DNA from: Halomonas citrativorans
Lineage (GTDB): Bacteria > Pseudomonadota > Gammaproteobacteria > Pseudomonadales > Halomonadaceae
Reading direction: 5' to 3'
Length of the DNA: 64,000 nucleotides
Assembly (NCBI RefSeq): GCF_900163645.1
Contig: NZ_FUKM01000057.1
Span: 124,001-188,000 of the forward strand
Each line of letters starts with the position of its first letter. Position 1 is the first letter of the stretch. Under the pieces are notes generated by a model. It saw nothing but the letters and a program-made list of their open reading frames with translations. It did not search any database and was not told the DNA's origin. Of this stretch, positions 33,181-35,993 are shown piece by piece. A program made the translations under genes and the position numbers.

Positions 33181-34266
33181 ATGCCTATGGCCCTGCGGGT
33201 TGCTCACACGCTAAGTGCGTTGCTGCTGCTAAGCGGCCCGCTGGCAGCCAGTGCAATGGCTGAAACGCCTGAGCGCTTGCCCGCGCTGAATGCCATATCA
33301 GAGCAGGCAAGCGTCGTCGGCGTTTCATCAGGCGGTTATATGGCAACCCAGCTAGCGGTTGCTTGGCCTGAGCGCTTTAGCGGTGTAGGCGTGCTGGCGG
33401 CAGGGCCCTGGGGCTGTTCGCAGGGCTCGCTGAACCTGGCGCTTAATCAATGCATGCAAACGCGTGCAGGCCAACCTGACCTGGATGAGCTGGAAGCACG
33501 TTGGGCGGGTTATGGAAGGCGTGATCGGGTTGGTCATCATGAAGACTTGGCCCAGCTACGCGCCTTTATCTGGTATGGCGATGCAGACGATGTCGTACAG
33601 CCCGAGCTGGCTGAGCTATTGGTCAAGCAGTGGTTGGGCTGGCTGACATCGCCTGAGCAGCTGCAGCTGGTGCGTAATCAGGCAGCGGGGCATGGCTGGC
33701 CAGTCCAGCTACGCGAGGAGGAAGCCGTTGGCCCGCAGGAATTAGGCAACTGCCGCCAGGGCGGTGGTAGCCATGTGCTGGCCTGTGATGAGGATGTGGC
33801 CCAGGAAATGCTTGCCTGGTTATACCCCGAACGTGACGCAACTGTGTCCGCAGCTACTTCCACAACTACTTCCGCAACGGGAGAGCTAGTCGCTTTCGAT
33901 CAGTCGGAGTTTGCGGTTAAAGGGCTAGCGGACACGGGGTATGTATTTATCCCTGCGGCATGTGAAGAGGGAGCATGCCCGGTCACTATTGCGCTGCACG
34001 GCTGCCAAATGAGCACTAACGCTATTGGTGATACCTTTGTTAGCCATAGCGGTTTGAATCATTGGGCCGCCAGCCACCAGCAGATAGTGCTTTACCCACA
34101 AGTTGACAGCAGCTTGTCGAACCCGCAAGGGTGCTGGGATTGGTGGGGATATGCAGAAAGCCTTTGGCAGAAAAATCCGCTGCACGATACCCGTGAAGGC
34201 GTCCAAGCGAGCGCGCTCATGAGTATGCTTGACCGTTTGGAAGCCGCGCCGGTTATGTCTGACTAG
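33181..34266 (+). CDS. Secreted PHB-depolymerase-family esterase
   Basis: 361 residues (or 359 from the ATG at 33187). A signal peptide ends near SAMA (about 27). The lipase box GVSSG holds the probable nucleophile S49. FIWYGDADDVVQP supplies the likely aspartate, and GHGW the likely histidine. The C-terminal half has LHGCQMS, QIVLYPQVDSS and NPQGCWDWWGY, typical of poly(3-hydroxyalkanoate) depolymerase-type esterases. A Ser/Thr/Ala linker (221-232) joins the two halves and is encoded by a 12-bp repeat. It probably hydrolyses extracellular polyesters or related esters. It starts 3 bp after the FKBP gene without a clear ribosome-binding site, so translation may be coupled. Confidence 0.8.
   Translation: MPMALRVAHTLSALLLLSGPLAASAMAETPERLPALNAISEQASVVGVSSGGYMATQLAVAWPERFSGVGVLAAGPWGCSQGSLNLALNQCMQTRAGQPDLDELEARWAGYGRRDRVGHHEDLAQLRAFIWYGDADDVVQPELAELLVKQWLGWLTSPEQLQLVRNQAAGHGWPVQLREEEAVGPQELGNCRQGGGSHVLACDEDVAQEMLAWLYPERDATVSAATSTTTSATGELVAFDQSEFAVKGLADTGYVFIPAACEEGACPVTIALHGCQMSTNAIGDTFVSHSGLNHWAASHQQIVLYPQVDSSLSNPQGCWDWWGYAESLWQKNPLHDTREGVQASALMSMLDRLEAAPVMSD
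33841..33876. repeat. 12-bp repeat encoding a Ser/Thr linker in the depolymerase
   Basis: ACTGTGTCCGCA, GCTACTTCCACA and ACTACTTCCGCA follow in frame and encode TVSA, ATST and TTSA (residues 221-232), between the two halves of the esterase. Confidence 0.75.
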
Positions 34267-35803: not shown

Positions 35804-35838
35804 GATGTAAAAATAAATAAAAAGTATTCGCATTTGTA

Positions 35839-35867
35839 TTGACGGTTTAAATGATAATGATTATATT
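35839..35867 (+). promoter_or_regulatory. Sigma70 promoter overlapped by a Fur box
   Basis: TTGACG (35839-35844), a spacer of exactly 17 nt and TATATT (35862-35867) make a near-consensus promoter. TGATAAT-G-ATTATAT (35852-35866) lies across spacer and -10 and matches the 7-1-7 Fur consensus TGATAATnATTATCA except for the last two bases. Fur with iron should block this promoter. The nearest genes on both sides converge on this gap, so it serves neither of them. Confidence 0.75.
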
Positions 35868-35872
35868 GTGCT

Positions 35873-35993
35873 TGTAGCGTTTAATGAGTCGCTACAGACC
35901 ACGACAGCGAGCCGCCAGTTTGTTGTCATGGTTTCTCCCTCTCATTGCTAGTCACGGTCTTTTGCCACTCCTTTGGAGTGGCTTTCTTTTTTT
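35873..35993 (+). ncRNA. Putative Fur-regulated small RNA (about 120 nt)
   Basis: Expected start is 35873-35875, six to eight nt after the -10. Stem-loop 1: TGTAGCG (35873-35879) with CGCTACA (35890-35896). Stem-loop 2: ACCACGACA (35898-35906) with TGTCATGGT (35924-35932), one mismatch. A C/U-rich unpaired stretch (35932-35963, including CTCCCTCTCATTGC) follows and could pair with purine-rich ribosome-binding sites near AUG. The end is an intrinsic terminator, GCCACTCC-TTT-GGAGTGGC (35964-35982), plus an 11-base T-rich tract. No good ORF lies within. It resembles RyhB/PrrF/NrrF in logic and size; I do not recognise it by sequence. The remaining gap (35994-36158) is AT-rich with nothing I can name. 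Confidence 0.7.

Follow-up and report, generated by a model that had tools for sequence, protein, structure and literature searches.

What is encoded between two converging genes?

The question that this locus raises is whether a gap of 355 bp in the genome of Halomonas citrativorans holds, on its plus strand, a gene for a small RNA (sRNA), and what sort of RNA that would be. The window, by which we mean the whole stretch of 64,000 nucleotides (64 kb) that was analysed, places the gap between a transporter gene and a peptidase gene whose ends (35803, plus strand, and 36159, minus strand) make them convergent, just as the initial annotation of this DNA had said. Our answer is that the gap very probably encodes a PrrF-type, Fur-repressed, iron-sparing sRNA of this lineage, with sdhC and acnB as its most likely targets; transcription, Fur repression, Hfq dependence and target repression are all things that we infer from sequence. 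The features on which the argument draws are as follows.

ends 35803, plus strand: upstream neighbour, a membrane transporter gene
35839..35844, plus strand: -35 element TTGACG (motif scan; TTGACG and 17-nt spacer in 30/30 genus loci)
35852..35866, plus strand: predicted Fur box TGATAATGATTATAT, overlapping the spacer and the -10 element (2 mismatches in 14 to TGATAATNATTATCA)
35862..35867, plus strand: -10 element TATATT (motif scan; genus loci)
35874..35993, plus strand: predicted sRNA, about 120 nt long (5' end placed from the promoter; fold z -5.2; Rfam PrrF match of 42 bits over 35839-35991; our model R1, described below, covers 35869-35990)
35874..35895, plus strand: hairpin 1 (covariation in the family and genus alignments)
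35883..35888, plus strand: hairpin 1 loop AAUGAG, the complement of seed CUCAUU at 35941-35946
35896..35934, plus strand: hairpin 2 (predicted fold; covariation)
35935..35963, plus strand: single-stranded seed region (predicted fold; 35924-35959 invariant in 34/34 genus copies)
35937..35945, plus strand: proposed acnB-pairing segment CCCUCUCAU (ATGAGAGGG in 26/29 acnB leaders)
35945..35957, plus strand: proposed sdhC-pairing segment UUGCUAGUCACGG (12/13 pairs across the sdhC GUG start)
35964..35993, plus strand: intrinsic terminator (8-bp stem 35964-35982, then T tract TTTCTTTTTTT)
ends 36159, minus strand: downstream neighbour, an M20 peptidase gene

The near-consensus promoter that had been claimed here is present, with 10 of 12 consensus matches. 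However, three promoter-like sites are seen in 3 kb and shuffles lead one to expect 2.5, so the match is not significant by itself, and the argument for a candidate sRNA gene rests on conservation instead, TTGACG with its 17-nt spacer being found at the corresponding position in every one of the 30 genus loci examined (L001-L030). The Fur box said to lie across the spacer and -10 element is likewise borne out as a sequence match, and is the sole site in the 64-kb window with two mismatches or fewer to TGATAATNATTATCA; relaxing this to three mismatches gives four sites against 1.07 expected. In relatives the match is poorer, often 9-11 of 14, and its position is alike in most, the best-scoring Fur-like site of L006 and L025 lying elsewhere than expected. 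Just 5' of the -35 element, an A-rich block (35809-35836) resembles the corresponding stretch of the plus-strand loci in one genus alignment and is possibly an UP element or a second Fur site. Further upstream, and also near the sRNA, the window encodes a protein (33181-34266) with weak Esterase and Esterase_PHB matches, possibly a PHB-depolymerase-like enzyme.

As to the RNA itself, the predicted fold of 35874-35993 has an energy of -42.9 kcal/mol (z -5.2), a stability equalled by none of 200 shuffles. The proposal of a unit of about 120 nt containing two stem-loops and ending in a hairpin plus T-tract agrees with the predicted terminator, the fold and the covariation described below. An unpaired C/U-rich stretch is there too, with one correction: its limits are 35935-35963 and not 35932-35948, positions 35932-35934 closing hairpin 2.

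How might the RNA act, and on what?

The genome encodes Hfq and two FUR-family proteins, and the mechanism that we propose would run as follows. With enough iron, Fur would occupy the box over the spacer and -10 element and block transcription; under iron shortage Fur would depart, letting transcription run for about 120 nt to the intrinsic terminator. Aided by Hfq, the single strand at 35935-35963 would then bind mRNAs of dispensable iron-rich enzymes at the start codon or ribosome-binding site, most likely those of sdhC (the first succinate dehydrogenase gene) and acnB (aconitase B), whose translation would be blocked and iron thereby spared.

The named targets (sdhC, acnB and the SOD gene) were chosen as PrrF and RyhB targets, acnB and sdh being PrrF targets in Pseudomonas. 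The start codon of sdhC is GUG, and CCGUGAAUAGCAA, which lies across it, pairs with 35945-35957 at 12 of 13 positions. Of 31 genus loci, 30 have CCGTGAATAGC at the start and one has CCGTGAATAGT; with 50 loci from other family genera included (81 altogether), CCGTGAATAGC occurs in 68 and a CCGTGA start in 80, the sole exception, L336, being a mis-called start. Coding reasons could of course explain much of this conservation. The start of acnB we read as GTG, behind a Shine-Dalgarno sequence within the conserved leader ATGAGAGGGCCCCAAC (L344-L373). Nine nucleotides over that Shine-Dalgarno, ATGAGAGGG, are the exact complement of 35937-35945 and are found in 26 of 29 leaders (30 loci fetched), the remaining three keeping 7-9 complementary nucleotides; this block is non-coding, and the flank upstream of it is variable.

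At least nine contiguous complementary nucleotides near the start are found in only 3 of 113 genes of the genome, acnB included, the start codons in this comparison being our own calls. In duplex energy, three of the 113 genes reach the sdhC value and six the acnB value (counts that may include sdhC and acnB themselves), and 2 of 58 window genes match one or the other, so the pairing energies by themselves are not exceptional. Nor is there enrichment of seed complements: the genome holds 16 complementary 14-mers with up to two mismatches, the RNA's own gene included, against 46 for a reversed control, and a second set gave 10 against 10. Only the sdhC match overlapped the start codon of an identifiable gene. 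A 15-nt tandem repeat (CCGTGACTAGCCATG-like) at L269 and L277 (G000:C32:197682-197710) yields chance matches to the seed complement.

Two ideas were tried and abandoned. An Fe-SOD target was dropped, the SOD gene of this genome pairing at only -11.5 kcal/mol. A SOD match is found in 39 of 41 genus genomes, mostly one each, and the translations at four loci (L207, L208, L210 and L215) look like the Mn type, so that sodB, the usual RyhB and PrrF target, may be absent from these genomes; it was not found here. The second idea, that loss of the sdhC site accompanies lack of a PrrF match, fits G062 and fails on G111, which is equally unmatched and keeps the site.

Might a real Fur-controlled sRNA have its main business elsewhere, with other mRNAs, or as an activator or sponge? 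We regard this as the lesser possibility, and one to be taken seriously, since the sdhC and acnB energies are unexceptional, seed complements are not enriched genome-wide, and the named candidates were limited to three. Set against it are the placing of both sites on a start codon or Shine-Dalgarno sequence, their conservation, and the standing of acnB and sdh as Pseudomonas targets of PrrF. We keep to sdhC and acnB as likely targets of the predicted RNA.

Is it a relative of PrrF?

The initial annotation recognised no known family sequence, and here it was wrong. At Rfam's own threshold nothing in the window matches, but at a lowered one the PrrF model (RF00444) aligns from end to end (1-150 of 150) at 42 bits and E 7.8e-6, the cut-off being 90 bits. 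The other four Rfam matches up to E 10 have E values of 0.81-8, and neither the RyhB nor the NrrF model is among the five. The design suggested earlier, of a RyhB/PrrF/NrrF type, accordingly survives as Fur-box-bearing and PrrF-like by sequence, and does not extend to a match with the RyhB or NrrF model. At E <= 0.001, RF00444 finds 118 of 151 family genomes and none of 14 control genomes, with none of the 151 family genomes searched passing 90 bits. These figures under-count the family, because the unmatched genomes include two (G005 and G034) that have the sRNA by blastn. Across the order, the same threshold picks out 47 of 293 genomes, 12 of them over the cut-off.

The reciprocal comparison was made with R1, a covariance model from 38 family sequences (the window's included) that starts just after the -10 element, omits the promoter, and was built without any locus above Rfam's cut-off. 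R1 recovers all 26 order-level PrrF-like loci (L181-L206), with best scores of 36.1-60.6 bits and further copies down to 30.4; 12 of these loci exceed Rfam's cut-off, and we take them to be Pseudomonas. Extra matches in L181 and L182, at 13 bits each, are at chance level, and 55 control loci (185 kb) give 13.4 bits at most. As the 26 loci were picked with the Rfam model, R1 confirms kinship and not spread.

The seeds tell a similar story. Loci above Rfam's cut-off carry UCUCCUCAUCAGGCUAAUCACGG, other family genera UCUCCUCAUCAAGCUA(G/A)UCACGG, Halomonas organivorans and others CUCCUCCUCAUUGCUAGUCACGG, and the window sRNA CUCCCUCUCAUUGCUAGUCACGG, which compared with UCUCCUCAUCAGGCUAAUCACGG keeps the 3' half (GCUAGUCACGG) and has an altered 5' half. 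To arrange them in this order is a reading made without a tree. It is on these grounds that we call the predicted sRNA homologous to PrrF, and, since it falls short of Rfam's cut-off, a divergent PrrF variant and not a formal member of RF00444.

The contrary view would have a Fur-repressed sRNA of independent origin, resembling PrrF only through its Fur promoter and anti-Shine-Dalgarno seed. It is favoured by the failure of the window and of every one of the 151 family genomes searched to reach Rfam's cut-off, and by differences in the hairpin sequences. We nevertheless think it improbable, because a model lacking the promoter detects the loci above Rfam's cut-off, the seeds form a graded series around a constant GCUA(G/A)UCACGG, and the parts stand in PrrF order.

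Does the RNA mask its own seed?

Within the PrrF-like RNAs, one group carries a loop complementary to its seed. The loop of hairpin 1 reads [AG]AUGAG in 100 of 103 distinct copies with a CAUU-GC seed (L001-L206), and a complementary loop occurs in none of 96 copies with CAUCAA-GC (75) or CAUCAG-GC (21) seeds; 12 further copies with other seeds, counted apart, include three with such a loop, and the Fur box, which has identical letters, is excluded from all these counts. Three copies depart from this pattern: in L009 the second copy reads AGUGAG, where a G-U pair preserves the complementarity, and L088 and L098 are without the loop. In the predicted fold of the window RNA, 35941-35947 can pair with this loop, the loop-seed form (-42.9 kcal/mol) lying close to one with three local hairpins (-42.1 kcal/mol). 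No covariation is visible between loop and seed because their letters are invariant, so the putative pairing rests on co-occurrence, and a single ancestral event kept by descent is also possible. It is a tentative idea, which we would not bet on, that in the CAUU-GC clade the RAUGAG loop is a built-in anti-seed masking CUCAUU, a switch that Hfq or a true target would open; if so, iron sparing would have a threshold. The loop also resembles the AUGAG of the acnB leader.

Is the gene conserved as a unit?

By blastn the sRNA is present in all 61 congeneric genomes sampled, and the 34 aligned genus copies show no difference over 36 nt (35924-35959). Covariation across Halomonadaceae, which had been proposed as a check, is seen for both hairpins in the family alignment and for hairpin 1 in the genus alignment too. 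Among the 38 family sequences the hairpin covariation score is 0.326, against 0.184 for shuffles, which overstate its significance because the sequences share descent, and at most 0.130 for a slid control, which preserves relatedness, the structure itself having been chosen with the same sequences in view. Sixteen of 19 hairpin pairs change on both sides somewhere in this set, with 17% of cells unpaired. RNAalifold recovers only hairpin 1 from the family alignment, and in the genus alignment prefers the loop-seed pairing over hairpin 1. Within the genus, pairs of hairpin 1 switch between UA and CG (18/15) and between AU and GC (22/12), and a terminator stem pair between GC and AU (23/11 of the 34 copies). 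Lack of conservation in relatives had been named as one of the findings that would count against an sRNA; promoter, stems and terminator are all conserved.

The unit also occurs in tandem. Matches of at least 70 bits number two to four in 20 of 61 genus genomes, those of G014 and G018 being partial matches or contig ends; the window genome has one copy. Arrays of three or four copies spaced at 183-184 nt are found in L016, L017 and L067, where seed and terminator persist in the downstream copies and neither promoter nor Fur box can be recognised, so that these copies would depend on read-through. Elsewhere in the order, L201 (G440), from another family, holds a tandem of five PrrF-like copies, each with a Fur-like box and four spaced at 277 nt.

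That the gap might hold a mere terminator common to the converging genes, with promoter and Fur box there by chance, is a thought encouraged by the chance-level count of promoter-like sites and by the frequency of terminator-like hairpins (7 seen in 3 kb, 3.2 expected), yet it is very improbable in the face of 36 invariant nucleotides upstream of the terminator, a promoter retained in all 30 genus loci, covarying hairpins and tandem copies of the whole. Slighter still is the case for a small protein gene starting at the ATG in the hairpin 1 loop, whose frame runs open to the end of the RNA in 26 of the 34 copies from the genus, and which we rejected on its non-constant frame (ATG-to-core distance modulo 3 split 21, 11 and 2 among the 34), its early stops in the other 8 and the lack of any Shine-Dalgarno sequence seen before the ATG.

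Why does it matter?

Our results indicate that PrrF-type iron-sparing RNAs are not confined to the genomes passing Rfam's cut-off, and that Halomonadaceae and further families of the order have them too, hidden by the threshold. The altered seed is a natural experiment on seed-target co-evolution: GATGAGGAG in the acnB leaders of genera with the CAUCAAGC seed would point to co-evolution, and ATGAGAGGG there would speak against it. There is a practical side as well, in that excerpts of three papers describe engineering of Halomonas bluephagenesis by sRNAs that use PrrF1 of P. aeruginosa as scaffold (PMC12164125, PMC13101641, PMC13414033). If H. bluephagenesis has a native relative of the RNA, as the 61 sampled genus members do, it could have Hfq, targets and iron control in common with PrrF1-scaffold tools. 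The portions of these three papers, PMC12096840 and PMC6533273 that were available describe no native PrrF-type RNA in Halomonas, which we do not offer as a claim of absence from print.

How does it compare with known systems?

RyhB (Rfam RF00057), NrrF, ArrF and FsrA are iron-starvation sRNAs that spare iron. The predicted RNA would be like RyhB and NrrF in sparing iron, and matches neither Rfam model. Microbes of cheese, including Halomonas, are the subject of a review of 2025 that, in the parts available, lists FsrA and PrrF as RyhB-like and calls RyhB-like systems in these organisms understudied (PMC12096840). With PrrF (RF00444) the likeness goes much further, taking in a Fur-box promoter, two 5' hairpins, a single-stranded GCUA(G/A)UCACGG seed and an intrinsic terminator, and tandem copies are a feature of some PrrF-bearing genomes as of some relatives of the single-copy window genome. 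What sets the window sRNA apart from PrrF is a seed in which CUCAUU-GC replaces CUCAUCAG-GC, and a 5' loop complementary to that very seed.
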